In this document: piece by piece, positions 37,941-64,000 of the stretch
How the letters are laid out: each line of letters starts with the position of its first letter
Numbering within the stretch: the first letter of the stretch is position 1
Origin: Bacteriovoracaceae bacterium
GTDB taxonomy: Bacteria > Bdellovibrionota > Bacteriovoracia > Bacteriovoracales > Bacteriovoracaceae
Reading direction: 5' to 3'
Length of the DNA: 64,000 nucleotides
Assembly (NCBI GenBank): GCA_013141065.1
Contig: JABFRR010000011.1
Coordinates: forward strand, 1-64,000
The notes under the pieces: generated by a model
Databases searched by the model: none
The model's input: the letters and a program-made list of their open reading frames with translations, nothing else
What the model was told of the DNA's origin: nothing
Translations under genes and position numbers: made by a program

Positions 37941-37957
37941 ATGCAAGTCACTTGCAT
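37941..37957. promoter_or_regulatory. Zur-type box upstream of the ZrgA-like gene
   Basis: ATGCAAGTCACTTGCAT, a perfect 17-bp palindrome 50 bases before the DUF2796 gene start. Same family as the boxes at 38655, 40575, 42059, 46246, 49462, 56680, 56704 and 61051. Confidence 0.8.
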
Positions 37958-38006
37958 TTGTGAGAATTTAATATAAATTATATAAAACCTCAAAACAAGG
38001 ACATTT

Positions 38007-38561
38007 ATGAAAACTGCCTCTATGATTGCACTCGTTTCTCTTTTAATTTCATCTAATAGTTTTTCCAATGAACACGGGCACAGCCTAGGCTCTCACGAGC
38101 ATGGCTCAATCCAAGTTGGTATTGCCATCGAAGGAAGTTCAGCAGAAATCGATATTGATGGACCAGCTGAATCTTTTTTAGGATTTGAATATGCTCCTAA
38201 GACATCAAAAGAGAAAAAAATATTTAAAGATTTCCAAACGAAGTGGACACAAAACCTTGAATCAATGATTGCTTTTGATAAACAATTAAATTGTAAAGTA
38301 ACAGAAGCCAGCTTTGAGCAAGAAGTAGAAAAAGAAGAAGTTGAATCTAAAACAAAGGCAAACGAAAAAAAAGAATCTGGAGTACATAGCGATATTGAAG
38401 CAAAAGCAAAGATCACTTGTGCTAAAAATATTTCTGGTAGTATGTTAACGATTTCGCTAAAGAAAGTTTTTAAGAACATTAAAAAATTAACAGTGGAAGT
38501 TGTTGGTGCAGATACTAAAAAAGTAGAAATTACTCAGGCCGTTCAATCATTTAAAATTTAG
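38007..38561 (+). CDS. DUF2796 (ZrgA-like) periplasmic zinc protein
   Basis: 184 residues, signal peptide (about 1-20). The mature start is His-rich (NEHGHSLGSHEHGS), followed by 'IQVGIAIEGSSAEIDIDGPA' and 'LGFEYAPKTSKEKKI', diagnostic of DUF2796, to which the zinc-regulated uptake protein ZrgA belongs. A charged Glu/Lys linker (about 106-130) lies in the middle; two cysteines flank it. A perfect Zur-type box precedes it. Periplasmic zinc capture for ZnuABC is the likely role. Confidence 0.85.
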   Translation: MKTASMIALVSLLISSNSFSNEHGHSLGSHEHGSIQVGIAIEGSSAEIDIDGPAESFLGFEYAPKTSKEKKIFKDFQTKWTQNLESMIAFDKQLNCKVTEASFEQEVEKEEVESKTKANEKKESGVHSDIEAKAKITCAKNISGSMLTISLKKVFKNIKKLTVEVVGADTKKVEITQAVQSFKI

Positions 38562-38580
38562 TTTACTTTGTCCCTAATAA

Positions 38581-38619
38581 ACTTTTCCGTAACGCAATTA
38601 AGGCGCGTTACGGAAAAGT
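38581..38619. terminator. Terminator hairpin after the ZrgA-like gene
   Basis: ACTTTTCCGTAACGC (38581-38595) and its perfect complement (38605-38619) give a 15-bp stem with a 9-base loop, starting 20 bases after the stop. There is no long T-tract, but A/T-rich outer pairs act similarly. Confidence 0.7.
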
Positions 38620-38654
38620 CTAGCCTATATTTATAAATGCAAGCCATTGACATT

Positions 38655-38671
38655 TTGCAAGTGGCTTGCAA
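38655..38671. promoter_or_regulatory. Zur-type box abutting the first COG0523 gene
   Basis: TTGCAAGTGGCTTGCAA, arms of 7 with a 3-base centre. It ends two bases before ATG 38674 and overlaps the place of a ribosome site. A -10-like TATATTTATAAA lies upstream at about 38627-38637. Confidence 0.8.
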
Positions 38672-38673
38672 AT

Positions 38674-39915
38674 ATGAAGACTATGAAAAATGCAATAGAG
38701 TCGCAAACAAAACTACCTGTAACCGTACTTTCTGGCTTCCTAGGAGCCGGAAAAACAACCCTTCTTAATCATATTTTAAGTGTGGATCATGGATTAAAGA
38801 TTGCTGTCATCGTCAATGACATGAGTGAAGTAAATATTGATGCTGGAATCATAAGAACAGAAGAAAAACTTGTAGAAATGAGTAATGGCTGTATTTGCTG
38901 TACCCTCAGAGAAGATCTTTTAGTTGAAATCAAAAAACTTGCTGAAGAAAAAAAGTTTGATTACTTGGTCATTGAATCCACAGGTATTTCAGAGCCAATA
39001 CCTGTGGCCGAAACATTCACCTTTGAAGACGAATCAGGAATTTCCCTGAATCAATTCGCAAGGCTTGATACAATGGTTACCGTTGTCGATGGATTTAATT
39101 TTTATAAAGACTATATGGAAGCTATCGACCTAAAAGAAAAGCAAATGGAAGTTGGCCCGGAAGATGAAAGAACAATCACTGACTTACTTATTTCTCAAAT
39201 TGAGTTCGCTGACATTTTAATCATGAATAAAATGGATTTAGTGACAAATGAAGAAAAATTAAGACTGACAGGAATACTAAAAAAATTAAATCCAAATGCA
39301 AAAATCATTGAATCGAAGAAATCAGTCATTGATGTTGGAGAAATTTTAAATACAAACCGTTTCAATTTTGAAACCGCAATGAACAATCCTGGCTGGATGC
39401 AAGAACTTCGTGGACATGAAACAAAAGAAACAGAAGAATATGGAATCTCTAGCTTTGTTTACAGAGAAAGACGCCCTTTCCACCCAGAACGTTTGTGGGA
39501 AGTCTTAACAACTTTACCTGAGGAAATCGTACGCTCTAAAGGATTTTTTTGGGTTGCAAGTAAACCTATGTCCGTTGGACTTTGGTCTCAGGCCGGAAGA
39601 ACTAGTACTTTAGAGGCCCGTGGGCAATGGCTTGCTTCGATGGAAGTTACTGACTGGGAACTGGATGCTGAAGAACTCACAGAAGTTAAGAGGAATTGGC
39701 ACAAAGACTTTGGTGACAGAGTTCAAGAAATTGTATTTATCGGACAAAAATTAATTAAATCCAATATAAAAGAAATAATGGATGAGCGTTTAAACTCTGC
39801 ACTTTTAACTGATAAAGAAATTTTACTGGGCAAAGAATACTGGAATAAAAACTTTCAAGACGCCACCATTAATCAATACCTAGAAATCGACTTATCTCCT
39901 GAGGAAAAAATGTAA
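38674..39915 (+). CDS. COG0523 GTPase, long (410-residue) subtype, copy 1
   Basis: 413 residues from ATG 38674; ATG 38683 is an alternative because the Zur box leaves no room for a ribosome site. P-loop GFLGAGKTT, metal motif GCICC (CxCC) in '[16 protein letters not shown]', ESTGISEP and NKMDLV, then a CobW C-terminal domain. COG0523 proteins are GTP-dependent metallochaperones delivering zinc (or other metals) to client enzymes under limitation. Very similar in opening and core to the genes at 43090 and 53030. Followed without a gap by DUF1826. Confidence 0.9.
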   Translation: MKTMKNAIESQTKLPVTVLSGFLGAGKTTLLNHILSVDHGLKIAVIVNDMSEVNIDAGIIRTEEKLVEMSNGCICCTLREDLLVEIKKLAEEKKFDYLVIESTGISEPIPVAETFTFEDESGISLNQFARLDTMVTVVDGFNFYKDYMEAIDLKEKQMEVGPEDERTITDLLISQIEFADILIMNKMDLVTNEEKLRLTGILKKLNPNAKIIESKKSVIDVGEILNTNRFNFETAMNNPGWMQELRGHETKETEEYGISSFVYRERRPFHPERLWEVLTTLPEEIVRSKGFFWVASKPMSVGLWSQAGRTSTLEARGQWLASMEVTDWELDAEELTEVKRNWHKDFGDRVQEIVFIGQKLIKSNIKEIMDERLNSALLTDKEILLGKEYWNKNFQDATINQYLEIDLSPEEKM

Positions 39916-40550
39916 TGACTGATTCAATTTTTGCCAATGATTTTTCTGATTTATACTCCATTCATCAAAAAGAATTTAACATTGGACTCATGAATATTGA
40001 AGAAATCGAGCCATCTACAATTAAGCCATATCTTGAAGCAAACTTTGATAGACTGCCTTCAATGTTTAAGTGCATTGTCTCAAAAGATGATTTTGAAGAA
40101 TCAATTAAAGAGCTAGATAAACTTTATTATATTCTTGATGACGATAATGAAAAACTCGAACTAATAAACTTTATCAAAACCCTTGTTTCAAACTTTGCCG
40201 ACATTACAGATTCACCTGAAATGGGCGTCAGCCTAGAAAAAGTTACAGGAGATATGTGCCGCTACTTCCACTGTGACATGAACCATCTAAGAATGGTTTA
40301 TCCTCTTCTTGGACCCGGAACTTTGTGGGCGAAAGAAGATAACTTAAGACGTAATTTTCTTGGTAAAGGAAATAATGATGAAGTCATTATAGATCCTAAT
40401 AAAATCTTCCAAGTTCCATCTAAAACAATAACTCTTTTAAAGGGCCAGGGACATCCTACGGCTTTTGGAAAAGCGGTTGTTCATGCATCACCCATCATTT
40501 CCAAAAGCAAAGAGAAGCGAGTCTTACTAAGAATTGAATCTATTTTTTAA
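39915..40550 (+). CDS. DUF1826 protein
   Basis: 211 residues. The signature region 'CRYFHCDMNHLRMVYPLLGPGTLW' (about 115-138) with H119-x-D121 and a late 'AVVHASPI' histidine recall metal-dependent dioxygenase-like folds and identify DUF1826. This family is repeatedly found beside COG0523 genes in Zur regulons. Its start overlaps the COG0523 stop by one base. Activity is not established. Confidence 0.85.
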   Translation: MTDSIFANDFSDLYSIHQKEFNIGLMNIEEIEPSTIKPYLEANFDRLPSMFKCIVSKDDFEESIKELDKLYYILDDDNEKLELINFIKTLVSNFADITDSPEMGVSLEKVTGDMCRYFHCDMNHLRMVYPLLGPGTLWAKEDNLRRNFLGKGNNDEVIIDPNKIFQVPSKTITLLKGQGHPTAFGKAVVHASPIISKSKEKRVLLRIESIF

Positions 40551-40574
40551 TTAAACTAACATAAGCTTACCTTA

Positions 40575-40592
40575 ATGCAACTGAGTTGCAAT
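40575..40592. promoter_or_regulatory. Orphan Zur-type box between convergent genes
   Basis: ATGCAACTGAGTTGCAAT; the core TGCAACT-G-AGTTGCA is perfect. It lies after the DUF1826 stop and faces the 3' end of the zur-like gene, so no protein gene starts downstream of it. GTTGCA with TATATC 16 bases later could form a plus-strand promoter. Confidence 0.75.
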
Positions 40593-40611
40593 TAAGACAA
40601 GTGAGTTATAT

Positions 40612-40698
40612 CCTATCATTAACTTTTAACCGTGGTTTTGTTTCCGTAACAAATTAGGAACGCGGTTGAAGGCAAAAAGGCCTGGCAACGGGCCTTTT
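40612..40698 (+). ncRNA. Candidate Zur-controlled small RNA
   Basis: Downstream of the orphan box and its possible promoter is a sequence able to fold: AACCGTG (about 40628) with CGCGGTT (about 40661), inner GTTTCC with GGAAC. A terminator follows at 40675-40700. No ORF with a ribosome site is present. An RNA of about 85-90 bases is predicted. It is an inference from arrangement; start and strand are unproven. Confidence 0.35.
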
Positions 40699-40700
40699 AC
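40675..40700. terminator. Bidirectional terminator
   Basis: AAAAGGCC (40675-40682) and GGCCTTTT (40691-40698) form a stem with T-tracts on both strands. On the minus strand it follows the zur-like gene (stop at 40711); on the plus strand it ends the region after the orphan box. Confidence 0.75.
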
Positions 40701-40710
40701 ATTTCTAGGG

Positions 40711-41130
40711 CTAGGAACATTTACTGCAAAGACCAAAAAAATCCATTCGATGTGAAAGATTTGTATATCCCACTTTTAAAAGATGGTTTGAAATTTGCGG
40801 TGGAACGCAAAATGGAATCATCTCAATCTTCTTACAGTTAGTGCACATCACATGATGATGGTGATCGTGTTTTTCACACACAATCTCATAACGCATAAAA
40901 CCCTCACCTAAATCAATCGCCCTAATCAGCTCTGTCTCATTAAAAGTTTTAAGGCTTCGAAACAAGGTTGCTCTATCAAAGTCTACGTCTTTGAGCTTAG
41001 TAGAGATCTCTTCAGCAGTTAATGGTGAGTGGTGCCTACCTAGGACGTCAAGAATTGCAAGCCTGAGTGGAGTGACTTTAAGACCATGCTTATGAAGAAG
41101 AATTGAGTGATTATTTTCAGTAGATTTCAT
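40711..41130 (-). CDS. zur: Fur-family regulator, probable Zur
   Basis: 139 residues. Winged helix with 'LKVTPLRLAILDVLGRHHSP' and 'DFDRATLFRSLKTFNE', then a dimerisation domain rich in ligands: 'HDHHHHVMCTNCKKIE' and the C-terminal CSKC, i.e. paired CxxC motifs for structural zinc. Its place inside a cluster of zinc genes with repeated palindromes points to Zur rather than Fur. Represses uptake genes when zinc-loaded. No box in front of its own start was found. Confidence 0.85.
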   Translation of the reverse strand: MKSTENNHSILLHKHGLKVTPLRLAILDVLGRHHSPLTAEEISTKLKDVDFDRATLFRSLKTFNETELIRAIDLGEGFMRYEIVCEKHDHHHHVMCTNCKKIEMIPFCVPPQISNHLLKVGYTNLSHRMDFFGLCSKCS

Positions 41131-41189
41131 TTGGTTAAATTAACAGATTCTTATGCGATAAATCAATATATTTTGATTCAAAATCAGAA

Positions 41190-41231
41190 CCGTACCAAAG
41201 TAACATAGTTATACATGAATCTTTGGTACGG
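41190..41231. terminator. Terminator between the protease and zur genes
   Basis: CCGTACCAAAG (41190-41200) and CTTTGGTACGG (41221-41231) form a perfect 11-bp stem beyond the stop of the trypsin-like gene. T-rich only on the flank. Confidence 0.65.
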
Positions 41232-41239
41232 GTTTTAGA

Positions 41240-42013
41240 TTATTTAGAGAGCGTCTCAAGAATCCAAGGGTGTGCCACTGACACATTTCCATAAATTCCA
41301 TAATACTTGGCCCTAGCGCAACCTTGACCCCAACTAACTACTCCTACGAGTAAAGGTGCCCCATCGCTGGCCACTACTGTAAATGGACCACCACTATCGC
41401 CCTGGCATGAATCTTTTTTACCGTTATCAAAACCTGCTGCTATCATTGAAGCATCTATTTTACCATTATATGAAGTCATTGCATTTGCTCTTTCATAACC
41501 CACAATTGGAACATCTACTTTTCTCAGCATTGAAGAGATACTGCCATTCTCACTTGTAGTTCCCCAACCTAAAACAGTGGCATTTACCCCTTCATCTATC
41601 GCTCCGTTATTAGCTAGTTCTGGATCAACTAGCGCAATTGCTCCTAGACCAGTCGATTTAAAATCAATGTGATTCTTTAATTCAAGCAATGCAAAATCAT
41701 AACTCATTGTTCTCGAATTATTTTTTGGATGTATATAAGATTTTTTCACTTCTAGCTTAATACGCTTTGGTGATTTTAAGTCGACACTACCACCTGTAAT
41801 GGCCTTATTAAAAATAGATTGGCAGTGAGCTGCAGTTAGAATCCATTTTTCGGAAATTATACTACCTGCACATCCACCACCTATACTTACAATGTAATTG
41901 GTTTCAATTATTGCAGGATCAACAAGTTCACCTCCAACAATTTTATCCGTAGCAAAAGAAACGGAGCTAAATGTTAAACTAATTAATAGAGAAGAAAAAA
42001 GAAATCTTTTCAT
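41240..42013 (-). CDS. Secreted trypsin-like serine protease (S1)
   Basis: 257 residues from ATG 42013, chosen because a signal peptide (to about residue 21) follows directly; an upstream frame to 42064 would run into the Zur-type box. Mature start KIVGG, then catalytic LTAAHC, 'YDFALLEL' and 'DSCQGDSGGP': the full His-Asp-Ser triad. Secreted endopeptidase. A box at 42059-42075 puts it under zinc control. Bdellovibrio-like predators make many such proteases. Confidence 0.92.
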   Translation of the reverse strand: MKRFLFSSLLISLTFSSVSFATDKIVGGELVDPAIIETNYIVSIGGGCAGSIISEKWILTAAHCQSIFNKAITGGSVDLKSPKRIKLEVKKSYIHPKNNSRTMSYDFALLELKNHIDFKSTGLGAIALVDPELANNGAIDEGVNATVLGWGTTSENGSISSMLRKVDVPIVGYERANAMTSYNGKIDASMIAAGFDNGKKDSCQGDSGGPFTVVASDGAPLLVGVVSWGQGCARAKYYGIYGNVSVAHPWILETLSK

Positions 42014-42058
42014 AAATACCATCCTTGATATAGAAATTATTCTATGACGGACGTGTAA

Positions 42059-42075
42059 ATGCAACAGAGTTGCAT
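42059..42075. promoter_or_regulatory. Zur-type box upstream of the trypsin-like gene
   Basis: ATGCAACAGAGTTGCAT, perfect arms ATGCAAC/GTTGCAT with centre AGA, 46 bases before the protease start on the minus strand. The gene on its other side ends here, so the protease is the only target. Confidence 0.78.
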
Positions 42076-42120
42076 TTGTGTAATTATTTGTAAGTAAATG
42101 ATGTCAAATTTTAGACAAAT

Positions 42121-43086
42121 CTAATTGCCCGACAGGAGTTCATCAGTATTTAAGACGCTAAGAATTTTCTCGATACTAGCTTTATACAAATCATTATCTT
42201 GATAATGTAAATCTATCCGACTATCGGCCCTATACTCGCTGGAAGTTCGATTTATTGTTCCATTTGCCGACTCTATCTTCATCCATCCTTTGTCTGTGTG
42301 AAAAAATCCTTTAGCTCGGATGATAGAATTATTTTTAACAACCTCGTTAAAAAAATTGCTCAGTTTAGTAACATCAAAAATATCACATCTCTCCCAACGA
42401 AAAGATCTATTAGAGAAACCCGTCGTGCTATTTTCTTGAGATTGACTTATTTTATGAATTTTATAGATTGGATAACTTAAATTAAATACACTTGAGGGAA
42501 ATTCACCTTTTGATGTGTGAATAAGACTCATCTTGGAAGGAGTCAGGCTTCTTATTTTTGATTCAAATTTTATTTTTTCCGATTCTGTAATTTTATCAGA
42601 AAAATTAGCGACAATAACATCAGAAGCTTGTATCTGCTCCCATACGATAGGTTCTCTAACAGCATGCCCGTCGATAGTCATCCCTGGATGAACCATGCAT
42701 ATTACAGGATGAAGATTAAACACAGATTTTAAGGTTGATTTATCAACCATATCAATAATGTCAGAAGCACGCGCTAGTCCAGATGGTTCGATAATAATTC
42801 TATCAAATTCCTTACTTTTACCTGCTTCAATTAACTTTTTATTTAAAACCATCTTAGAAACACAACAAATGCATCCACCAGGAATATGCCAAACTGTAAA
42901 CTTGCTTGCCAAATTTCTTAATTCAATCTCGTGTCCATCAATATTATTTTCTCCAAATTCATTGATTATTACAAGAATTCTCTCGCTAAGTTGATGTTCG
43001 GAAATATAGCGAATTATTGCTGTCGTTTTTCCAGATCCTAAAAAACCGCTTACAATATTCAAATGCATTTTTTGAGATAATGACAT
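42121..43086 (-). CDS. COG0523 GTPase, short divergent subtype
   Basis: 321 residues: P-loop GFLGSGKTT, 'INEFGENNIDG', metal motif GGCICC, 'IEPSGLARASDI' and a weak base-recognition motif (ANFSD instead of NKxD). A short CobW-type C-terminal domain follows. The most divergent of the seven COG0523 proteins here. Last gene of the cdd-cysS-COG0523-COG0523 operon, 3 bases after the previous stop. Probable metallochaperone; client unknown. Confidence 0.85.
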   Translation of the reverse strand: MSLSQKMHLNIVSGFLGSGKTTAIIRYISEHQLSERILVIINEFGENNIDGHEIELRNLASKFTVWHIPGGCICCVSKMVLNKKLIEAGKSKEFDRIIIEPSGLARASDIIDMVDKSTLKSVFNLHPVICMVHPGMTIDGHAVREPIVWEQIQASDVIVANFSDKITESEKIKFESKIRSLTPSKMSLIHTSKGEFPSSVFNLSYPIYKIHKISQSQENSTTGFSNRSFRWERCDIFDVTKLSNFFNEVVKNNSIIRAKGFFHTDKGWMKIESANGTINRTSSEYRADSRIDLHYQDNDLYKASIEKILSVLNTDELLSGN

Positions 43087-43089
43087 AAA

Positions 43090-44310
43090 TCAATGGGCCG
43101 GTAACTTAATCTTAAGAGACCAATCTCCGAAAGAATCAGAAACATTTGAAAATTTGGTCATGTCTCCAGCTAACTCTGCATCGGAAAGAAGACAAAGCTC
43201 TAATTCAGTCTTAATTGTCGGTAAATTCTCTTTTTCTCCTATAAAAACCATACGCTGATGCCTGTCTCCCCAAGTGTTATCCCAAAATAATTTTATTTCC
43301 TCTAAAACAACTGGATCTTGAGGCCAAAGTTTTTCTGGAGCGGCAGCAAGCCAATAACCTACGGGATCTACAACTCTCTCGGTTCCAGCAATGGCAAGCT
43401 CTGCAATAAAATTTGGCTGTGAAACTATCCAAAATATTCCCTTGGCACGATATAATCCTTTGAAATCTGTATTCATAAACTTCCAAAATCTTTCATGGTG
43501 AAATGGTCTTTTAGCTTCGAGAACAAAACTATCGATTCCATATTCATCTTTTTCAGAAATTTCTTCTCCTCGCAATATCGTCTGCCATCCTGGAGCATCT
43601 TCAGCCTTTTGAAAATCAAATAACTTTGTATCTAAGACTTTTGTTAATGGAACTTTCCCTTTTTCCGAAATCTCAATTCTTGCAGCAGGGTTGAGAAATT
43701 TTATTATACCTTCAAGTTTTAATAATTCTTCAGAAGTTACTAGATCTTTTTTATTAACAATAACGACATCTGCAAATTCCACCTGCTGAGTAAGAAGGCT
43801 AACAATAGAACGATGATCTTCTTCACCTACTTCCATTTTTCGATCTTTTAAAGATTCACCGGACTTCCAGTCTCTTAGAAATGCTTTGGCATCAACCAAT
43901 GTCACCATAGTGTCTAATCTTGCGTAGCTGGATAAAGATTCACCTTCTTCATCCTCAAAGGTGAACGTTTCGGCAACTGGTAGTGGCTCTGATATACCTG
44001 TTGATTCAACAATCAGGTAGTCATATTTTTTTTCTTCAGATAGCCTTTTGATTTCTGTTAATAAATCTTCTCTAAGCGTACAGCAAATGCATCCATTACT
44101 CATTTCTACTAATTTCTCTTCAGTTCGAGATAGGGTAACACCATTCTTTTGCGCTAAATCCACATCTAAATTAATTTCAGACATATCGTTGACGATTATT
44201 GCTACTTTTTTCTCCTCTCTGTTAAGTAATATATGATTAAGAAGAGTTGTTTTTCCAGCTCCCAAAAACCCTGATAAAACAGTTACCGGTAGTCGTGTGT
44301 CAGTTTTCAT
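43090..44310 (-). CDS. COG0523 GTPase, long subtype, copy 2
   Basis: 406 residues: GFLGAGKTT, '[16 protein letters not shown]', '[16 protein letters not shown]', NKKDLV and a CobW C-terminal domain ('[13 protein letters not shown]'). Paralogue of the genes at 38674 and 53030. It lies 42 bases after cysS and in the same operon, which suggests it may help metallate CysRS or cytidine deaminase under zinc limitation. Confidence 0.9.
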
Positions 44311-44352
44311 ATTTCTTCTCCTGTTTTTCTGCCTAAGATACTCTAAAAAAAA

Positions 44353-45762
44353 TTAGTCATCTCTTTTTGCTTTTAATATTTTTCGAGATGAATATCTCCA
44401 CTTTGTTCCATCCGGGGAATCTTCAATCTGAATCCCCATTTCAAGTAACCTACCTCGATACTCATCACTTCCTTTATAGTCTTTGTTCTGTCTTGCTAGA
44501 TTTCTAAGTTCTATCATTTTCTCGACAGTAGGAATATCAACACTGCGATGTCGTATACTTGATAAATGCATTAAAAACAGCTTAGGATTATTTTGTAAAA
44601 AGCCTAAAAAATTTGCACTTGCAATTAAATTAGCTTTAAGTTGAGATGTTTTAACTAATGAAAGTTGTTCGGCCATTCCTCTGAGATATGAAAGTGCTGC
44701 TGAAGTATTCAGATCATTTTTTAGTAGTTGAGTTAACTCAGGATCAATCTCTCCCTTAACCACACTTAGCTCTGAACATTCATCGAGAATTATATAAATT
44801 CGCTCCAGATTTAAAATTGCGTCTTCTAGTCTATCTTCATTCCAATCAAGAACATTTCTATAATGAGTAGAAAGTAGAACCCAGCGAATTGCCTCACCCG
44901 GGGCAATATTTAATAAATCTCGGACTAAAAGAACATTGCCTAAAGATTTAGACATTTTTTTACCTTCAATCGTTACAAAGCCATTATGAATCCATGTTCT
45001 ACAATATAGTTCTCCATCATGAGCAGCTGTGCCTTGAGCAATCTCATTTTCGTGATGCGGAAATATTAAATCTTGCCCACCACCGTGAATATCGATAGAC
45101 GTACCTAGATATTTTTCGATCATTGCCGAGCACTCAATATGCCACCCCGGCCGGCCCTTTCCCCAGGGGCTTTCCCAACCAGGTTGATCAAGATCAGATG
45201 GTTTCCATAAGACAAAATCTCGTGGGTCACGCTTGAATGGGGCAATTTCAACTCTTGCACCTGCAATCATCTCGTCAACATTCCGACCTGAAAGTTTTCC
45301 GTATTCAGAAAATGATGGGACATGGAAAAGAACATGGCCTTCTGTAATGTAGGCGCTTCCATTCTTTAGCAATTTTTTAACCATATTAATAATTTCAGGA
45401 ATACTTTCTGTAACTCTTGGTTCAATGTCTGGATTAAGTGCCCCAAGCGAACGCATATCTTCTTGATAGGCCTTAGTGTATCTTTCAGATATAACAGAAA
45501 TATCTACATTTTCTTCTTTTGCTTTTAGATTAATTTTATCATCTATGTCGGTAATATTTCTTAAGTAGGTCACTTTTTTAAAATGATATTTTAATAATCT
45601 ATATAAAATATCAAAAACAATAGCAGGTCGTGCATTACCGATATGAGCAAAATTGTAAACAGTAGGCCCACAGACATACATGTTAACTTGATCAGGAATT
45701 AAACTTTCTATTCCTACTTTTTTTTTAACAAGAGTGTTATAAACAAAAATTTGATTACTCAA
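44353..45762 (-). CDS. cysS: Cysteinyl-tRNA synthetase
   Basis: 469 residues: zinc ligand C31 in 'MYVCGPTVYNFAHIGNARP' with HIGN, then 'HIECSAMIEKYLG' (second Cys), 'IDIHGGGQDLIFPHHENEIA' (His and Glu ligands) and KKMSKSLGN. All four zinc ligands of the family are present, so it is not a zinc-free variant. Charges tRNA-Cys. Its position in a Zur-boxed operon with a COG0523 gene suggests a zinc-limitation paralogue; whether another cysS exists cannot be seen here. Overlaps cdd by 8 bases. Confidence 0.95.
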   Translation of the reverse strand: MSNQIFVYNTLVKKKVGIESLIPDQVNMYVCGPTVYNFAHIGNARPAIVFDILYRLLKYHFKKVTYLRNITDIDDKINLKAKEENVDISVISERYTKAYQEDMRSLGALNPDIEPRVTESIPEIINMVKKLLKNGSAYITEGHVLFHVPSFSEYGKLSGRNVDEMIAGARVEIAPFKRDPRDFVLWKPSDLDQPGWESPWGKGRPGWHIECSAMIEKYLGTSIDIHGGGQDLIFPHHENEIAQGTAAHDGELYCRTWIHNGFVTIEGKKMSKSLGNVLLVRDLLNIAPGEAIRWVLLSTHYRNVLDWNEDRLEDAILNLERIYIILDECSELSVVKGEIDPELTQLLKNDLNTSAALSYLRGMAEQLSLVKTSQLKANLIASANFLGFLQNNPKLFLMHLSSIRHRSVDIPTVEKMIELRNLARQNKDYKGSDEYRGRLLEMGIQIEDSPDGTKWRYSSRKILKAKRDD

Positions 45763-46186: not shown

Positions 46187-46245
46187 TTAATAAATTCCAT
46201 TAGATAAATAACAATCAGTATTAAATACCTTACCCTTCTCAATAT

Positions 46246-56572: not shown

Positions 56573-56590
56573 AGTCTCATTTCTCCAAGA

Positions 56591-56620
56591 TGAGGGGCGT
56601 AATAAATTACGGCCCCCTCA
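56591..56620 (-). promoter_or_regulatory. Hairpin in the znuC leader
   Basis: TGAGGGG-CGTAAT pairs with ATTACG-GCCCCCTCA with a 1-2 base bulge, 12-13 pairs around an AA loop. In the znuC transcript it lies about 20 bases before the GTG start, just before the ribosome site. It may affect translation or protect the mRNA; no T-tract follows. Confidence 0.5.
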
Positions 56621-56679
56621 AGTATTCATCGCTTCATGTTACGGGTATGAGACTCTGAATTCATAAAACATACATGAAA

Positions 56680-56719
56680 CGCAACTCAGTTGCAATTAAA
56701 ATTTGCAAACTACTTGCAT
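56680..56719. promoter_or_regulatory. Two Zur-type boxes between znuC and the NicO gene
   Basis: CGCAACTCAGTTGCAAT (56680-56696) and TGCAAACTACTTGCATT (56704-56720). The first is nearer znuC, the second 36 bases before the NicO start. Likely one per divergent promoter. Confidence 0.78.
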
Positions 56720-56755: not shown

Positions 56756-57409
56756 ATGCTCATTAGTTCATTCTTTTTAGGAATGCTTCATGCTCTAGAA
56801 CCAGGTCACGGAAAAGGTGCCATGGCTGCAATTGCATTTAGTCGTCAATTAAAGATTAAATCCATATTAATTTTTTCTTTTTTTAATTTTTTAACCCATA
56901 CATTCTTTGCTGGAGCTATTGCGACTGCTTTCGCTGTCATTTTTCAACATTCGAAAACTGCTGAAGATTATCTGTCAAGCTTAAGTCATGCCTTATCCTG
57001 GCTTATTATCATGTCAGGAATTGTTTTACTTGCTTATGCAATAAGAAGCAAATCTAAGAATCTAGCAAAAAATTGCTGTGATGATAATTACTTGATCGTT
57101 CAAAAACAAATCAATAATCCAAAAAAGCTTTTTCTTTTGGCATTTTCGATTGGCTTAATACCCTGCCCTACTGCAATTATTTCATTAATTGCCGGTATTA
57201 ATTCCGGTTATATATATGGTGCTATACTCAGCGTAATAATTTTTGGGATAGGTGTATCCACATCCCTTTTAATCTTATTAATTGTCGTCAACAAAACTGC
57301 AAAAAAACTTCAATTGATTAAAGGACAAATGCAAATCGCAAACTATTATCTGCATATTCAAGCTGTCTTTATTCTTTTAATAGGATTAATAAACCTTAAA
57401 GGCCATTAA
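56756..57409 (+). CDS. NicO-family (RcnA/HupE-like) metal transporter
   Basis: 217 residues, six transmembrane helices. Diagnostic 'GMLHALEPGHGKGAMAAIAF' (about 9-28) with the HxxxDH-like metal motif, and 'SIGLIPCPTAIISLIAGINSG' (about 133-153). Known members move Ni/Co; in a Zur-type operon with two COG0523 genes it probably moves Zn or Co. AGGAG ribosome site. Overlaps the next gene by 1 base. Confidence 0.82.
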   Translation: MLISSFFLGMLHALEPGHGKGAMAAIAFSRQLKIKSILIFSFFNFLTHTFFAGAIATAFAVIFQHSKTAEDYLSSLSHALSWLIIMSGIVLLAYAIRSKSKNLAKNCCDDNYLIVQKQINNPKKLFLLAFSIGLIPCPTAIISLIAGINSGYIYGAILSVIIFGIGVSTSLLILLIVVNKTAKKLQLIKGQMQIANYYLHIQAVFILLIGLINLKGH

Positions 57410-58392
57410 TGATAAATAAAATACCAGTGACGATCTTAACAGGCTATTTAGGAAGTGGTAAAACAACGATTCTTAACTACATCCTAAAAGAAAACCATGG
57501 AAAAAAAATAGCTGTCATTGAAAACGAATTCGGTGAAAAAAATATTGATTCAGAATTTGTTATTCATCAAAAAGAAAATATCTACCAAATGACCAATGGG
57601 TGCATCTGTTGCAACGTAAGAGATGATTTAGTAAAAACATTACAGGATATAATTAAGCTCAATTATAATTTTGAATCCATTATTATTGAAACAACTGGTG
57701 TAGCAGACCCCAATCCAATACTTCATACCTTTAAGCAAATTGCATTTTTAGGAGAACATTTCGAAATCGACTCGATTATATGTGTAATAGATTCAAAAAA
57801 CATTCAAAGGCAAATAGAGCGCAGTATTGAAGTGAAAAAGCAAATCTCTTCAAGCAATCTCTACGTCCTAAGTAAAGCCGACCTCGCCTCTAATGAAGAA
57901 ATCATTTGGGCCCAAAATAAAATCATGTCCTTAAACCCATCTGCCGAGACCCACCTTTCAAGTAATGCCAATTTTGATATTGATAAGATTTTCATGAGAG
58001 GCTTATTTCGTACAAAAATTGCAGTTCCAGCATTTTTTAAGAAACCCAGATCTGCGATGCCTATATTCACTAAAATTCAGAATGCAGATCATGAAGAAGG
58101 CGTTGAATCCATGTCACTTGAACTTGCAGGAAAAATGGATGAAATGCTATTAAATCTCTGGCTGAATATACTTTTTGAGAGGGCTTCTGATGAAATTTAT
58201 AGAATGAAGGGCATTCTGTTTCTTGACGACAATTTACAAAAAACATTTTTGCAGTGTGTGCATGATTTCGTTGAATTAGTTCCTTCAGATGATATTACAG
58301 ATCAAGACCTGAAAATTAATCAAATTGTAATCATTGGAAAAAACTTAAATCGCGAAATGATAGAAATTGGCTTTAAAAGCTGCATTAAGTAA
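57409..58392 (+). CDS. COG0523 GTPase, YjiA-like subtype, copy 2
   Basis: 327 residues: GYLGSGKTT, 'AVIENEFGEKNIDSEFVI', 'MTNGCICCNVRDDLVKTL', 'IETTGVADPNPILHTF' and SKADLA. C-terminal domain with 'IYRMKGILFLDD' and 'QIVIIGKNL'. Starts at the NicO stop; coupled to that transporter. Confidence 0.9.
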   Translation: MINKIPVTILTGYLGSGKTTILNYILKENHGKKIAVIENEFGEKNIDSEFVIHQKENIYQMTNGCICCNVRDDLVKTLQDIIKLNYNFESIIIETTGVADPNPILHTFKQIAFLGEHFEIDSIICVIDSKNIQRQIERSIEVKKQISSSNLYVLSKADLASNEEIIWAQNKIMSLNPSAETHLSSNANFDIDKIFMRGLFRTKIAVPAFFKKPRSAMPIFTKIQNADHEEGVESMSLELAGKMDEMLLNLWLNILFERASDEIYRMKGILFLDDNLQKTFLQCVHDFVELVPSDDITDQDLKINQIVIIGKNLNREMIEIGFKSCIK

Positions 58393-58415: not shown

Positions 58416-59750
58416 ATGGATAAAAGAATTCCCGTCACAATACTTACTGGTTTTTTAGGATCAGGAAAAACAACTCTGTTAAATTACATATTAACTCAAA
58501 ATCACGGTAAAAAAATTGCCGTGATTGAAAACGAATTTGGTGAAATTGGAATTGATAATGAGATTGTCGTCAATGCTGAAGAAGAAATTTTTGAGATGAA
58601 CAATGGTTGCATCTGCTGTACCGTTCGAGGCGACCTCATTCGAATTCTTGGAAAACTGTCAAAAAAGAAAGAAAAGTTCGACTATGTTATTATTGAAACT
58701 ACTGGACTTGCTGACCCTGCGCCCGTGGCACAGACATTTTTTGTAGATGATGACATTAAAAGAGATTTTAGACTAGATGGTATTGTTACACTAATAGATT
58801 CAAAACATTTTAGCCAGCACATCGAAACTGACAAAGAATGTCTAGAGCAAATTGCTTTTGCAGATGTAATTTTATTAAACAAAACTGACCTCGTAAGTGC
58901 TTTAGAACTTATCGTTATAGAAAATAAAGTTAAAGCAATTAATAATCAGGCTAAAATGTTTCAAACAAAAAATGCTAATATCGATATCAATGCAATCCTA
59001 GAGGTCGGTGGCTTTAATTTTGATAGGGCAATGGAAATAAAGCCAACATTTCTTGAAAAAGAATATCCTTTCGAGTGGATTGGATTTACAGAACTGAATA
59101 AGGGGGATTATGAAATCAAACTTAAAGAGGGGCCTGATAATAGTTTAAAACTTGGTTTTAAACTATTTGCAAAAGAAGTAAACATAGAAACACTGGAAGA
59201 TCATTTTTCGACTATTATGTCAGAACGCCCTGCACCTTCAACAAGCGGCCATATTTTACTACCCAATAATGAACTAATAAATTTAGATTTATCAAAAGGT
59301 AATGATTTTCTTTTAAAAATGACTATCCATGAAAAATCTTTCTTCGCTCTTTCTAGTCAACATCATCCTGATGAATTTTCACTAATTTTAAAAAGTTCAG
59401 ATCAAAATGAAATCAAGTTTCCTTTGCAGAAAAATTACTCTGGTGGCCATGAGCATGACAATGAAATTACGTCAGTTGGCATTGAAGCAGAGGGAGAACT
59501 AGATCCGGAAAAATTTGATAAATGGATAGGCCAGTTACTTAAAACGAAGGGAGCAGATATTTTTCGATCAAAAGGAATTTTATCACTTAAAGGAGAACCA
59601 CTACGCTACATTTTCCAAGGTGTTCACATGCTTCACGAAGGTACCTATGATGAGCCGTGGAAGGGCAAAACACTTAATCAACTTATTTTTATTGGTAAAA
59701 ATCTTGATCGCAAAGAACTCAACGAAGGCTTTAAGCAATGTCTAGTATAA
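58416..59750 (+). CDS. COG0523 GTPase with a large internal insertion
   Basis: 444 residues, about 110 more than its paralogues. GFLGSGKTT, 'AVIENEFGEIGIDNEIVV', 'NNGCICCTVRGDLIRIL', 'ETTGLADPAPVAQTFF' and NKTDLV are intact. The CobW C-terminal end is intact too ('IFRSKGILSLKGE', 'QLIFIGKNLDRK'). Between them (about 208-345) is an extra beta-rich segment with SSQHHPDE and SGGHEHDNE, possible metal ligands. Probably a metallochaperone with a client- or metal-binding insert. Overlaps the WD40 gene by 13 bases. Confidence 0.88.
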   Translation: MDKRIPVTILTGFLGSGKTTLLNYILTQNHGKKIAVIENEFGEIGIDNEIVVNAEEEIFEMNNGCICCTVRGDLIRILGKLSKKKEKFDYVIIETTGLADPAPVAQTFFVDDDIKRDFRLDGIVTLIDSKHFSQHIETDKECLEQIAFADVILLNKTDLVSALELIVIENKVKAINNQAKMFQTKNANIDINAILEVGGFNFDRAMEIKPTFLEKEYPFEWIGFTELNKGDYEIKLKEGPDNSLKLGFKLFAKEVNIETLEDHFSTIMSERPAPSTSGHILLPNNELINLDLSKGNDFLLKMTIHEKSFFALSSQHHPDEFSLILKSSDQNEIKFPLQKNYSGGHEHDNEITSVGIEAEGELDPEKFDKWIGQLLKTKGADIFRSKGILSLKGEPLRYIFQGVHMLHEGTYDEPWKGKTLNQLIFIGKNLDRKELNEGFKQCLV

Positions 59751-60790
59751 ATTTAGATGGAAATGCAATTCCTATTATTAATCCAACTTGGGTTCAAAGA
59801 GTTGATTCTCCTGTAATTTGTATAGAACATAGTCCTAACGATGATGTACTTATAATAGGACTTGATGATGGTTATATACTTATCTTTAACTCCAAGACTG
59901 GTGAATTCACAGATAAGATAAAGGCACACGAGAAAGCTTGTTCAAGTGTTAAGTTCAACAAAAACGGTAATTGTTTTGTATCAATTTCTGAAGACGGCAG
60001 TTTTTCAATTTTTGAAAAAAACGAAATAACAAAATCCTTTATTAAATTTTCGAATAATAAGCTTTCTGAACGATGGCTAGAGCATGTAAGTTGGTCGCAA
60101 TCAGACGACGTTATAATCTGTGCTGGGAAAGAAGTTTGGGTGTACATAACTTCAACGAAAAGCATGATTAAACTTGGAGAGCTTTCTTCTACGATAACAG
60201 GAATTTCTTGGATAAATAAAAATGAATTTGTAGTGTGTGCTTATGGTGGTTTGGCAATATTTTCAATTTTGACTAAGTCATTATTGGAAAAAATTCCCTA
60301 CATTGGCTCATTAATTTCGGTCGTTGTCTCCCCAGGAGAAAAGTACATTGTAGCTTCGGCCCAAGACAAAAGCATCATGATCTGGGAAATTAAAACTAAA
60401 AAATCTCTCATTATGAGTGGCTTTGAATCTAAATCAAACTATTTAAGTTTTCATCATAAAGGATTATCTATGGCAAATGCCTGTGGTGAAAGTATTTCTG
60501 TTTGGGATTATTCTAACAAAGGCCCGGCAGGAAAAATGCCCGTTGAGTTAACATCACTTAACGGAGCGGTTACTGATTTAAAATTTTCTCGCAATCATGA
60601 TTACCTTTTATGCTGTAACGAATCAGGAGTACTTGCATTTTGGAATCCTTCAAAGTCACTATACCCTCTTGCCATCAGTGGTATTTCCGAACATATTATA
60701 AATGTTGCAACATGGAACCATACAGATTCTGTTGCCTATATTGGGCTACAGAAAGGGATTATTGCTGCCATTCCGATGCTACAACCATAA
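59738..60790 (+). CDS. WD40-repeat protein
   Basis: 350 residues, no signal. Seven or so blade-like repeats with ends such as 'LIIGLDDGYILIFNSKTGEF', 'VSISEDGSFSIFEKN', 'SAQDKSIMIWEIKT', 'ACGESISVWDY' and 'CNESGVLAFWNPS'. A scaffold propeller. Co-encoded with a COG0523 gene, as at 47.4-49.4 kb, suggesting complexes between GTPase and propeller. Confidence 0.88.
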   Translation: MSSINLDGNAIPIINPTWVQRVDSPVICIEHSPNDDVLIIGLDDGYILIFNSKTGEFTDKIKAHEKACSSVKFNKNGNCFVSISEDGSFSIFEKNEITKSFIKFSNNKLSERWLEHVSWSQSDDVIICAGKEVWVYITSTKSMIKLGELSSTITGISWINKNEFVVCAYGGLAIFSILTKSLLEKIPYIGSLISVVVSPGEKYIVASAQDKSIMIWEIKTKKSLIMSGFESKSNYLSFHHKGLSMANACGESISVWDYSNKGPAGKMPVELTSLNGAVTDLKFSRNHDYLLCCNESGVLAFWNPSKSLYPLAISGISEHIINVATWNHTDSVAYIGLQKGIIAAIPMLQP

Positions 60791-60812: not shown

Positions 60813-61010
60813 CTATCTTTTTTTAAATCCAAAAGGACAATGTCGACACCCCATCTTGCAACACTTTCTTAAGTGTTGCAGATAATACGTCGTAGAAATC
60901 TTTTCTCCTGTTTTTGGATCAATATAATAATTTTCCTTAACAAGTGAAGCTTCTTTATTCAGTAGCTCACAAAGTGACTTATACTCATTATTTGCTTTTT
61001 TTTTGTTCAT
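60813..61010 (-). CDS. DUF5522 small cysteine-rich protein
   Basis: 65 residues: 'VKENYYIDPKTGEKISTTYY' and the Cys-rich signature 'LRKCCKMGCRHCPFGF' (CC-x3-C-x2-C), typical of DUF5522. Probably metal-binding. Its promoter region contains a Zur-type box (61051). Confidence 0.8.
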   Translation of the reverse strand: MNKKKANNEYKSLCELLNKEASLVKENYYIDPKTGEKISTTYYLQHLRKCCKMGCRHCPFGFKKR

Positions 61011-61050: not shown

Positions 61051-61068
61051 ATGCGACTTACTTGCAAT
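61051..61068. promoter_or_regulatory. Zur-type box (weaker) between DUF5522 and the thioredoxin-like gene
   Basis: ATGCGACTTACTTGCAAT, two mismatches from the palindrome consensus. Located in the divergent gap 61011-61138. Confidence 0.6.
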
Positions 61069-61138
61069 TAGTTTATTAAAACCTACTCTGATTAAATATT
61101 AACGCTGCAAGGAACGAACCTCATAAAATGGATAAAAA

Positions 61139-61540
61139 ATGCTACTCCTAATTCTTATGGCTCTTTTTAGTAAAGCAAGTGCTGATTCATTGATAAGAAT
61201 AGATAAAAGCATGGTTGAAGAAATTATTCCTTTCTCTCATAAGTATGAACTCATCATTGAAGATAATTGTTCATTTTGCTTAAATCAACTATCTATTCTA
61301 AAAGACTGTGTGGATGAAAAAGATGTTATCGTCTTAATGGATAACCGATCAAAACTATCTGAAGAAAAGTTACAGCGAATTATTAAAAGAAAAAAAATTT
61401 CCTTTAAAACTTATATTCTAAGTGAAGAGCTAAAGAAGACTTATGAATTTAAAACCATCACGCCCATGATGTGGATAAATAAACTTGAAGAAAAAAAATC
61501 CTATACTGGCGTTGTCTCATGCAAACAACTTAAGAGTTAG
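61139..61540 (+). CDS. Periplasmic thioredoxin-fold-like protein
   Basis: 133 residues with a signal peptide (about 1-15). 'IIEDNCSFCLNQLSILKDCV' has a CxxC (CSFC) after a strand, and 'KTITPMMWINKLEE' gives a Thr-Pro near the expected cis-Pro: a thioredoxin-like arrangement. A further Cys is near the end (VVSCKQL). A redox or metal-handling protein; possibly disulfide control of periplasmic zinc ligands. Confidence 0.6.
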   Translation: MLLLILMALFSKASADSLIRIDKSMVEEIIPFSHKYELIIEDNCSFCLNQLSILKDCVDEKDVIVLMDNRSKLSEEKLQRIIKRKKISFKTYILSEELKKTYEFKTITPMMWINKLEEKKSYTGVVSCKQLKS

Positions 61541-61541
61541 A

Positions 61542-62153
61542 TCAAGTTTTAATTTGAAATATAATCGTTTTAACAACGTAATAAGTATTATTCGTTTTAG
61601 TTTTAAAAACCCATTTGCGGACAGCTTCTAAGGCCGAATCATCTAGGATTTTATGACCTGAGCTTTGTAATATTTGGGTTTCAAGCGGAACTCCTTGGGT
61701 TCCTATCAGTATTTTTACTTTCAATTCTCCTTGCAGACCTCTTCTTAAAGCAGCTTTAGGATATTGCGGTTCATAATAGTTTAATATATTCTCATTAAAA
61801 TCACTTGAGCCCCCTCCCCCAGATCCATTAGCGAGAGAGGCACCGCTTGAAGCACTTCCGCTACCTACTAAGTTTTCTGAAAGCTCAGTTCGACTATCAG
61901 TATGCATTTCACTGGTTTTATAACTATTTTTTTTCACAGGATTTGCAATTGTCTTAATTTCTTTATGTCCTAAAATATTCGAATTTTCACCACGTCCAGG
62001 GCCTGCTTTCAATCCTATTAAATTTATCCTAATTTTATTTTGAAAAGTCTGATAGTCTGACCTATCTACTTTTGAAATAGATAAAACAAATAATGCTCCT
62101 AAAGCAAGATGAAAGAGCACGGAATATTGAAAGCTTTTTAAGATTGTTGGCAT
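61542..62153 (-). CDS. TonB-family energy-transducing protein
   Basis: 203 residues: one N-terminal transmembrane helix (about 9-25), a Ser/Gly-rich linker, and the TonB C-terminal domain 'YYEPQYPKAALRRGLQGELK' to 'SALEAVRKWVFKTK'. One base downstream of the TonB-dependent receptor gene, so it is dedicated to that receptor. Confidence 0.88.
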   Translation of the reverse strand: MPTILKSFQYSVLFHLALGALFVLSISKVDRSDYQTFQNKIRINLIGLKAGPGRGENSNILGHKEIKTIANPVKKNSYKTSEMHTDSRTELSENLVGSGSASSGASLANGSGGGGSSDFNENILNYYEPQYPKAALRRGLQGELKVKILIGTQGVPLETQILQSSGHKILDDSALEAVRKWVFKTKTNNTYYVVKTIIFQIKT

Positions 62154-62154
62154 A

Positions 62155-64000
62155 TTAAATTTCTATTTTCAAACCAGTATAAACAAGCCTACCCGTATTA
62201 GGTCCCCATACGTGTCTATTATCGAGATGAGTGTGACCTCGGTGCGTTCTCCATGATAGTGGAGACTCGCCATCTTTAGTCTGGGTGTAATCAAGAAGAT
62301 TATTAACTCCAAGTAACCAAGAAAACTTACTAAATTGATATAGGTAAAAAACATCTAGAGTGAAAAATGTCGGTGACCTTTGACGTTTTTGATTTGCCGG
62401 AATTTTATCAAAACTCATAGGATCTGGATCATCATTAAGCGTATTATAATTTTTATAATAACCATAGGGACTAAGTTTTCTAGGGCCTACGATATTGGCA
62501 CTAACAACTACTTCATTCTTGCCAAAGTGGTAATCAGACACAAACCTCGCCCTAGTTTCTTGGGCAGCTGTTGGAAGTTTTTCTTTATATGAATCAGGTA
62601 ACATAAACCAATCAAAACTGCTTTCCAAAGTCCAATCAGGTGTTATTTTTTGAATATGAAGCAGCCCTAGAGTCTTTATATTCATGGCAGTATTTGAATT
62701 TTTAAATAAAACTGGAGAGGTTTCTTCGTCAGCAAAGGCCATGTTATTCAATCTAGTCCATGCAAATGAAAATGCAGAACTTGAATTATTGCCTTCATAA
62801 TTAAGTGTGTAAGTAAAATTATGGGCCATTTCAAGCTTGGTAATACTCAACTCAAAACCCTCTTCATTTGTTCCATGTTGGGATTCAAACATGGACAATG
62901 GGGCACGATAACCTACTCCATAGGCAAATCTCGATGATACTTTCTCATTATGAGTTCTTTTATAATGAACCCTAGGAGCAATTGCAGTCTTTCTAAGTTT
63001 ATTATTGAGGAGCCTTTTATCATCCCAATCAACATTCATATTATCAAATCGTAAAATTAAGTTAAGCTCATCATTTTCTGTAATGATCCATTCATCTTGA
63101 ATGTAGGCTCCATAAGTTTTAAATTTGAACGAATCTCTCTTGTAGTTACTAACTTTATAGAGATATTCCGAGCTAGATTTCATCTCTTCATTTTTATGAT
63201 CAATTCCAACTGTTAAAAAATGATTATCATTGATTACATTGTTTATTTTAAAATCAAAAAAACGAAACATATCTGTATTATTATAATCATAGCCATGGGA
63301 ATAAATTGATTTTTGAGTTTGTTTAGCGAGAGAAAAAGCTCCTTTTAAATTTATATCGTCATTAAGATGATAAGAAAGACTCCCGCCCGCATCAACTCGA
63401 TTGAGCCTTATTCTGTCACCTATTTTACTTAAGTCTCCTGTAAATTTATTGCGAATATCTCGATTGCTCCCAAAATCATCATTAGCATCTGTACTCGCTG
63501 GATAAGTTGTGGGTCTATAGGCCTTTGTGGTTCCACCAAGAAGTTCCAGGTCTTGATATCCTGCCCTTAGTGAAACTTTTAATTTATCACCAATTCGATT
63601 TTCTTTTTTTATAAAAATCGATTCTTGTGATTGCCTTGAAGACTCTGTTACATTGTTGTTATCAACATCAAATGAACCCATTAAATTTTTCTGAGCACCT
63701 ATTACTGTTCCCCCATAATTATCCCCATAAGATCCGAGAATTTCTTGATTGAGATACTGATGTGTTCCCCCTCGTATTTGATAAGTGAATTTCTTTTCAT
63801 TCGGAATCATTGTGATGATGTTAATTGCTCCACCGATTGATTCAGGAGCAGTTAGAGAAGCACCTGCTCCTCGCATAATTTCTAATTGACTAACTCCCAC
63901 CATGGGAATGGCTTCCATACCGTAGAAAGATGAAACTGATGAAAAGGCAGGTATCCCATCAATGAGAATAGTTGTATTTTCTCCCCTCATTCCATTTAAT
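62155..64000 (-). CDS. TonB-dependent outer-membrane receptor (5' end outside window)
   Basis: At least 611 residues visible; the N-terminal signal, TonB box and part of the plug lie beyond 64000. The plug shows 'TTILIDGIPAF', 'VSQLEIMRGAGASLTAPESI' and 'GGAINIITM'. The rest is a 22-strand-type barrel ending LKIEI. By neighbourhood with the Zn island it is probably a zinc or zincophore receptor. Its promoter is outside the window, so a Zur box cannot be checked. Confidence 0.9.
   Translation of the reverse strand, partial: LNGMRGENTTILIDGIPAFSSVSSFYGMEAIPMVGVSQLEIMRGAGASLTAPESIGGAINIITMIPNEKKFTYQIRGGTHQYLNQEILGSYGDNYGGTVIGAQKNLMGSFDVDNNNVTESSRQSQESIFIKKENRIGDKLKVSLRAGYQDLELLGGTTKAYRPTTYPASTDANDDFGSNRDIRNKFTGDLSKIGDRIRLNRVDAGGSLSYHLNDDINLKGAFSLAKQTQKSIYSHGYDYNNTDMFRFFDFKINNVINDNHFLTVGIDHKNEEMKSSSEYLYKVSNYKRDSFKFKTYGAYIQDEWIITENDELNLILRFDNMNVDWDDKRLLNNKLRKTAIAPRVHYKRTHNEKVSSRFAYGVGYRAPLSMFESQHGTNEEGFELSITKLEMAHNFTYTLNYEGNNSSSAFSFAWTRLNNMAFADEETSPVLFKNSNTAMNIKTLGLLHIQKITPDWTLESSFDWFMLPDSYKEKLPTAAQETRARFVSDYHFGKNEVVVSANIVGPRKLSPYGYYKNYNTLNDDPDPMSFDKIPANQKRQRSPTFFTLDVFYLYQFSKFSWLLGVNNLLDYTQTKDGESPLSWRTHRGHTHLDNRHVWGPNTGRLVYTGLKIEI

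Follow-up and report, generated by a model that had tools for sequence, protein, structure and literature searches.

The stretch of DNA analysed here (the window, 64,000 nt in length, contig JABFRR010000011.1 of assembly GCA_013141065.1, positions 1 to 64,000 of the forward strand) belongs to a Bacteriovoracaceae bacterium, and its right-hand part shows an island of zinc-related genes containing seven genes which encode COG0523 GTPases. All seven are located in 38647-59750, a span of 21.1 kb, which bears out the seven genes within 21 kb reported in the first-pass annotation of this DNA. Nearly every operon of the island is preceded by a palindrome, TGCAA-N5-TTGCA, named here the Zur-like box, and the island is probably a zinc-starvation regulon of the Zur type, collected at a single site. 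Its genes and boxes are the following, the GTPases being numbered G1 to G7 from left to right:

37942-37956: Zur-like box, perfect, before zrgA
38007-38561, plus strand: ZrgA-family zinc uptake protein (PF10986, 108 bits)
38656-38670: Zur-like box, perfect, immediately in front of the probable G1 start (38674)
38647-39915, plus strand: COG0523 GTPase G1, ZigA-like, start probably at 38674, in the tree with the zigA of congeners
39915-40550, plus strand: DUF1826 protein (PF08856, 113 bits)
40576-40590: orphan Zur-like box, perfect, in the gene-free gap between two convergent genes
40711-41130, minus strand: FUR-family regulator 1 (PF01475, 70.8 bits), two CxxC motifs, no box before the gene
41240-42064, minus strand: trypsin-like serine protease, apparently secreted (start read by eye; PF00089, 153.6 bits), with its own box
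42060-42074: Zur-like box, perfect, before the serine protease
42121-43086, minus strand: COG0523 GTPase G2, divergent, without NKxD
43090-44310, minus strand: COG0523 GTPase G3, ZigA-like
44353-45762, minus strand: second cysteinyl-tRNA synthetase (CysRS), zinc ligands kept
45755-46186, minus strand: cytidine deaminase (CDA), zinc ligands kept
46246-46260: Zur-like box, one mismatch, in front of both the CDA-CysRS-G3-G2 operon and the gene of FUR-family regulator 2
46245-46733, plus strand: FUR-family regulator 2, likely start 46302 (PF01475, 57.2 bits)
46730-47452, minus strand: M14 peptidase, MpaA-like (PF00246, 47.7 bits; MpaA model 81.8, cut-off 157)
47433-48413, minus strand: 326-aa protein without family, possibly a diverged beta-propeller, no Pfam match
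48398-49408, minus strand: COG0523 GTPase G4, nearest to YjiA
49463-49477: Zur-like box, perfect, separating the G4 operon from the gamma-carbonic anhydrase (gamma-CA) operon
49491-50066, plus strand: gamma-CA-like hexapeptide protein
50118-50345, plus strand: 75-aa protein, whose relatives adjoin zigA in other genomes
50355-51245, plus strand: second ZnuA-like binding protein (PF01297, 95 bits)
51265-51648, plus strand: DUF3299 protein, the gene end met by an insertion sequence copy
51616-52935: broken insertion sequence of the ISAZ013 type (terminal inverted repeats of 31 nt), starting inside the DUF3299 end
53030-54262, minus strand: COG0523 GTPase G5, ZigA-like, last in the znu operon
54266-55111, minus strand: ZnuA (PF01297, 218 bits)
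55104-55958, minus strand: ZnuB (PF00950, 158 bits)
55955-56572, minus strand: ZnuC (PF00005, 78.5 bits)
56680-56718: two Zur-like boxes, one with one mismatch and one perfect, between znuCBA and NicO
56756-57409, plus strand: NicO-type transporter (PF03824, 38.9 bits; DsbD_2, PF13386, equal at 39.2 bits)
57409-58392, plus strand: COG0523 GTPase G6, nearest to YjiA
58416-59750, plus strand: COG0523 GTPase G7, nearest to YjiA, 444 aa with an insert
59738-60790, plus strand: WD40 beta-propeller protein (PF00400, 61.7 bits)
60813-61010, minus strand: DUF5522 protein (PF17653, 56.6 bits)
61052-61066: Zur-like box, one mismatch, between the DUF5522 gene and the gene of a 133-aa protein
61139-61540, plus strand: 133-aa protein containing CxxC, matching neither Pfam nor NCBIfam
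61542-62153, minus strand: TonB-like protein (PF03544, 68.4 bits)
62155-64000, minus strand: TonB-dependent receptor, continuing beyond the window
23127-33743, plus strand: conjugation-gene region left of the island, encoding TrbI, TraG/TraD and an integrase of phage type (32646-33743)

The neighbours named in the first-pass annotation (znuABC, zrgA, DUF1826, NicO, FUR, DUF3299, DUF5522, CysRS, CDA, gamma-CA and M14) are all confirmed by profile matches. No ribosomal protein was found among the island open reading frames (ORFs) scanned, and Rfam at gathering scores gives no match in 30000-64000.

The COG0523 GTPases and their number in other genomes

PF02492 is above its cut-off in the seven GTPases, and PF07683 (CobW_C), which sets COG0523 apart from HypB, UreG and MeaB, is above it in six, G2 (42121) being below at 19.3 versus 22. 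All seven have intact Walker A and GCxCC motifs, an NKxD-like motif ([NTS]KxD) is present in every protein except G2, and none of them has a His-rich stretch (at most 3 His per 20 residues). Three NCBIfam equivalog models were used, with cut-offs of 600 bits for ZigA (NF038288), 361 for YjiA (NF008578) and 332.1 for CobW (TIGR02475). G1 (38647), G3 (43090) and G5 (53030) score 557, 549 and 535 bits with the ZigA model and, being below its cut-off, are named only ZigA-like. The YjiA model is the best one for G4 (48398), G6 (57409) and G7 (58416), also below cut-off (221, 176 and 236 bits), and G2 is a divergent member. The division into three subtypes proposed earlier stands in this form, except that G7, assigned to a type of about 330 residues, has 444. 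Membership of a cobalamin subgroup, which the first-pass annotation regarded as contrary to its zinc reading, was also looked at: the CobW model gives 95-195 bits for the island proteins, so far under the cut-off that no copy is filed as CobW. An eighth COG0523 gene, ZigA-like, is located outside the island on contig 9 (C9:112164-113234) and adjoins, by reading, the gene that is also next to zigA in two congeners, each with one zigA. The zigA of these congeners is 81-83% identical to G1, and the contig 9 copy, which shares their neighbourhood, shows only 72% identity to theirs, an odd relation noted for L005:6063-7295 and window positions 38647-39915.

The genome shows eight CobW_C matches (one just below the cut-off), and the maximum in the other 367 genomes of the phylum is four (genomes G306 and G325); 45 of the 368 phylum genomes have any match and 323 have none. 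Each of 13 congeners has at most one, and the island as a block is absent from all 13. Three further sets were covered: 397 genomes of the Bradyrhizobium phylum (220 with a match, maximum 10 in the central genome, then 7, with at most 12 candidates scored per genome), 291 genomes around an Anabaena (146 with a match, maximum 7), and 299 genomes around Ectobacillus (41 with a match, maximum 9 in the central genome, 5 elsewhere); match positions are listed in part in the first two. Among 25 hand-picked genomes, two hold 9 and 10 matches: Ectobacillus panaciterrae (G368) has 9, two of them fragments, on several contigs with a largest cluster of four within 7.7 kb, and Bradyrhizobium diversitatis (G382) has 10, spread over several contigs. 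No second cluster of seven was seen in the sampled genomes, where the largest other clusters among the positions listed contain four genes: one in G325, of the same phylum, and four outside it, in G368, G370, G371 and G390. A total of eight is high, not unique, and the local number is unmatched within the sample; the earlier statement that most genomes carry one to four copies holds only approximately, since counts reach 10.

The Zur-like box and the proposed zinc regulon

The box was found repeated on reading the intergenic stretches. The window contains 12 sites with at most one mismatch, and 100 shuffles give a mean of 4.4 and a largest value of 9. Perfect sites number 12 in the whole genome, six of them inside 37942-56718 (18.8 kb), with a binomial probability of 1.9e-11 that is not independent, since the motif was discovered in the island. 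The other six comprise one before the contig 9 zigA, one before an operon FUR-DUF3299-ZrgA on contig 5, and four within ORFs without evident zinc link. Two one-mismatch boxes (C4:64737 and 64760) are located before the TonB receptor operon, just beyond the window. Judged by gene spacing, the boxed operons would be G1-DUF1826, CDA-CysRS-G3-G2, G4-326-aa protein-M14, znuCBA-G5 and NicO-G6-G7-WD40, so that all seven GTPases appear to belong to box-led operons.

The box also recurs in the phylum, in 29 loci chosen by COG0523 and not by boxes. A perfect box is upstream of 16 of 33 COG0523 genes versus 36 of 364 other genes (Fisher 1.8e-7, only a guide because the loci are related), and of 10 of 34 other island homologues and three of 12 FUR genes in the same loci. 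The 33 ORFs include pieces of a split gene (L034), a piece cut by the end of the stretch (L031) and a protein without CxCC (L043), and some of the 364 are genes diverging from one of these boxes. Genes that overlap by more than 80 nt, such as those of L036, escape the operon rule. A FUR gene of L033 is separated by two one-mismatch boxes from paralogs of ribosomal proteins (by eye L31, L24, L28 and S14). A common predicted operator is found before zinc genes, elsewhere in the genome and in relatives, as would be expected of a Zur regulon, and together with the zinc-uptake genes it supports the zinc-limitation island of the first-pass annotation. Locus L033 (3217-9373) also encodes, near its boxes, a 413-aa protein with CobW_C and without Walker A, and its zigA has a perfect box.

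Under this reading, the box statistics suggest that, with ample zinc, a FUR-family repressor loaded with the metal would occupy the boxes at eight places and silence about a dozen transcription units, and that all of them would be released together when zinc falls. By their families, the TonB receptor, ZrgA, ZnuCBA, the second ZnuA and perhaps NicO would import zinc. By analogy with published work on COG0523, the seven GTPases may then allocate the scarce metal to a few proteins through GTP-driven metal release: the three ZigA-like copies would be general allocation factors at raised dose, G4 and G7 would work with propeller-like partners, and the CDA/CysRS operon would supply zinc enzymes, both of which keep their zinc ligands and are therefore likely zinc recipients, not zinc-free stand-ins.

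Several findings weigh against the zinc regulon. The genome has three FUR genes, two in the island and one on contig 5, and the best NCBIfam models of their products are PerR or Fur, all far below cut-off. No FUR protein reaches the Zur equivalog cut-off (34 versus 167 for the contig 5 protein), the Zur model is absent from the matches of both island proteins, and the gene of regulator 1 has no box. One-mismatch sites amount to 108 in the genome versus 65 for a reversed control pattern; they are mostly chance, and lone sites of this type are weak evidence. Some one-mismatch sites of the window fall inside genes, 17 of the 33 phylum COG0523 genes (including the four of L024-L027) have no perfect box, and the perfect box at 40576 serves no annotated gene. 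A promoter rule applied to the boxes fits them poorly, and NicO, adjoining G6 and G7, could point to cobalt or nickel.

The orphan box at 40576 shows a -10-like hexamer at 17 nt and then two hairpins (region 40576-40695), and the 78 nt after it fold better than 199 of 200 shuffles (z -3.59). This region may be a candidate zinc-regulated small RNA, or merely a two-way terminator. The promoter rule, in which a half-site is the -35 element and the -10 element lies at 17 nt, was rejected: two minus-strand sites match at 5/6, yet the orphan site only at 4/6, and eight of the 74 plus-strand TTGCAW words of the window (boxes included) equal it, so that the rule is not evidence. The centres of the window boxes (37942-61066) are of two flavours, near CTNAG and near GTNAC, which, in a genome with three FUR genes, might mean two operator classes.

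Lineages, mobile elements and gene partners

A competing explanation is that an element-borne or element-adjacent region gathered zinc genes and their duplicates, most copies doing the same job and their number being without meaning. The conjugation genes and the phage-type integrase end at 33743, about 4 kb left of the island, and the region 23127-33743 contains, by reading, VirB4-like and TrbL-like ORFs as well; the integrase adjoins the conjugation genes, the arrangement of an integrative conjugative element. Transposase pieces are found at 34.8 kb and 51.7-52.9 kb, and the congeners, with at most one CobW_C match each, lack the multiplication. The tree, made from 64 of 71 collected proteins (six without Walker A and one without CxCC were dropped) and drawing on 19 chosen loci of 80 named loci, groups G1 with the zigA of congeners, next with the contig 9 copy and next with G5 (all starred), so that G1, G5 and the contig 9 copy look like lineage duplicates. 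The partners of G3 are the zigA proteins of three further genomes, which represent two other genera of the family (100/100). G4 pairs first with L011 and next with G6 (starred, with a long G6 branch), and G7 with L030 and L038 (85/85, not starred); the placement of G2 is unsure, as its terminal branch has 8.07 changes per column. The set would derive in part from lineage duplication and in part from several older lineages, and at least four tree lineages among the seven, all with Walker A and GCxCC kept and all apparently in boxed operons, argue against mere redundancy. Transfer itself is plausible, although the G+C content does not set the island apart (0.341 versus 0.337-0.369 in other stretches) and the search for att repeats as an element boundary (33.7-38.0 kb against C4:62-80 kb and window positions 1-33 kb) gave nothing convincing, the longest common words being of 16-17 nt. 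Redundant dosage is a serious contender, on balance somewhat doubtful.

The first-pass annotation took the seven GTPases for client-specific metallochaperones, each serving its operon neighbour (CDA, CysRS, propeller, DUF1826, NicO and others), and this idea is supported only in part, one line of support being the CDA. A CDA gene overlaps or touches a COG0523 gene in three of the 29 phylum loci (L017:2686-4178, L019:6853-8249 and L027:7340-9071), and these CDAs are nearer to the island CDA (48-56% identity) than are the salvage CDAs of two congeners (40%); the six CDAs compared all keep the zinc ligands. A literature search pairing cytidine deaminase with COG0523 found nothing, and the pair is a recurrent association, apparently without print record in the literature searched. 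The CDA of the genome was found in a single copy by a search with the island protein, and each of the 13 congeners has one. That the island CDA replaced a native one was considered and rejected: the gene next but one to the cdd of a congener (by eye thymidine phosphorylase) gives no match in this genome, in an assembly 92% complete and with no positive control, so that loss of the salvage operon is at most a possibility. This salvage operon of a congener, with its cdd, is located at L128:8250-10918.

Propellers are the second recurrent partner: a GTPase gene adjoins a propeller or WD40 gene in L011, L030, L036 and L038, and a match of this kind occurs somewhere in at least 37 of the 80 named loci. 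Neighbour counts in these loci are lower bounds, as 15 of the 80 showed no GTPase, presumably lost to ORF pruning. L011 holds relatives of both G4 (61%) and the 326-aa protein encoded at 47433 (26%). The latter is possibly a diverged beta-propeller: the recognised entries among the 50 Foldseek matches listed for it are mostly propellers, a hint only, since its model is poor (mean pLDDT 51.5, from two sequences), and profile comparison with the WD40 set gives a probability of 14.5%. In the distant relative L038 (5996-13760), a COG0523 gene (54% to G7) and a WD40 gene lie beside a CbiM-like gene (by eye) and an ABC gene, and the locus also contains FUR, two DUF3299 genes, an M14 gene whose product is 52% identical to the island M14, and five perfect boxes. 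Another distant relative, L036 (6116-11427), shows ZrgA, FUR, znuCBA-like, COG0523 and WD40 genes in an unbroken series, and a perfect box is located at 10923.

Other partners change between genomes. The island CysRS is a second copy, each of the 13 congeners showing one strong match, and it keeps the zinc residues, in a comparison with the contig 9 copy; the nearest relatives of G3, in L011, L039 and L040, adjoin DUF1826 and not CysRS. The 75-aa protein, next to gamma-CA in the island, adjoins zigA in L012 and L016. Even the GTPase adjoining the CDA in L017, L019 and L027 matches G4 or G7 best, whereas the CDA operon of the island holds a ZigA-like and a divergent copy. With neighbours swapped in this way, adjacency alone names no client, and G1, G5 and the contig 9 copy share one clade. 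Of the client-specific proposal, the recurrent CDA and propeller pairs remain; as a rule for every copy it is unlikely. A broader version, in which GTPases paired with the CDA, with propellers and with uptake proteins divide the allocation of zinc among different recipients, the CDA is a new COG0523 client and the box at 40576 drives a small RNA, is less likely still. That the island serves cobalt or nickel, or an iron response, instead of zinc is very improbable: the NicO-type transporter, the PerR/Fur models of the FUR proteins and the presence of CobW and nitrile hydratase activators in the COG0523 family would allow it, but ZnuCBA, ZrgA and ZigA-like GTPases predominate, the CobW-model scores are low, and the box is shared with the FUR-DUF3299-ZrgA operon of contig 5.

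Comparison with known systems

The kind of cluster, its components and its principle are already known, and it is the number of COG0523 genes that is extreme. Haas 2009 (PMC2770081) describes clusters in which Zur sites precede COG0523 genes and the company includes znuABC, DUF1826, and CysRS and gamma-CA paralogs; the Zur-linked CysRS keep their zinc residues there, and COG0523 subfamily 5 is associated with WD40 proteins and znuABC. The island shares znuABC, DUF1826, CysRS, gamma-CA and WD40 beside COG0523 with the clusters presented there and differs from them in holding seven COG0523 genes together, plus an eighth elsewhere; cytidine deaminase, here in an island operon, has zero mentions in the main text of that paper. 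In Mycobacterium avium paratuberculosis, an island of some 90 kb that is specific to the lineage gathers most of the genes with Zur boxes; zinc-responsive induction was shown for it, and zinc-free ribosomal paralogs are found behind Zur boxes (Eckelt 2014, PMC4298942). As there, boxed zinc genes are clustered in the present island; in the mycobacterial one, the cobW genes number three and are accompanied by zinc-free ribosomal proteins and by secretion genes, versus seven COG0523 genes here. In Cupriavidus metallidurans, the cobW1 operon contains CysS, carbonic anhydrase and other zinc-enzyme paralogs behind Zur sites (PMC11340326); of the three CobW proteins reported in that source, CobW2 and CobW3 have large His-rich regions, unlike the seven of the island. 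In view of the clusters of Haas 2009 (PMC2770081) and the 90-kb island (PMC4298942), as these papers present them, the earlier statement that no system of this breadth is known was too strong. A search of the literature for a trypsin-like protease with a zinc box found nothing, and searches pairing Bdellovibrio with Zur or COG0523 gave, judged by titles, nothing on this subject.

COG0523 proteins are leading candidates for zinc chaperones and their clients are mostly unknown, so seven boxed copies, a few of which have partners of a kind that recurs beside COG0523 genes elsewhere, are a natural set for matching GTPase to client. The island also yields a testable zinc-operator sequence for the phylum, and makes the CDA, the MpaA-like amidase and the serine protease possible zinc-shortage genes. 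One more neighbour of a COG0523 gene was observed in L042 (3375-4819), where a SlyD-like isomerase (by eye) adjoins a short COG0523 protein with SCICC replacing GCICC.

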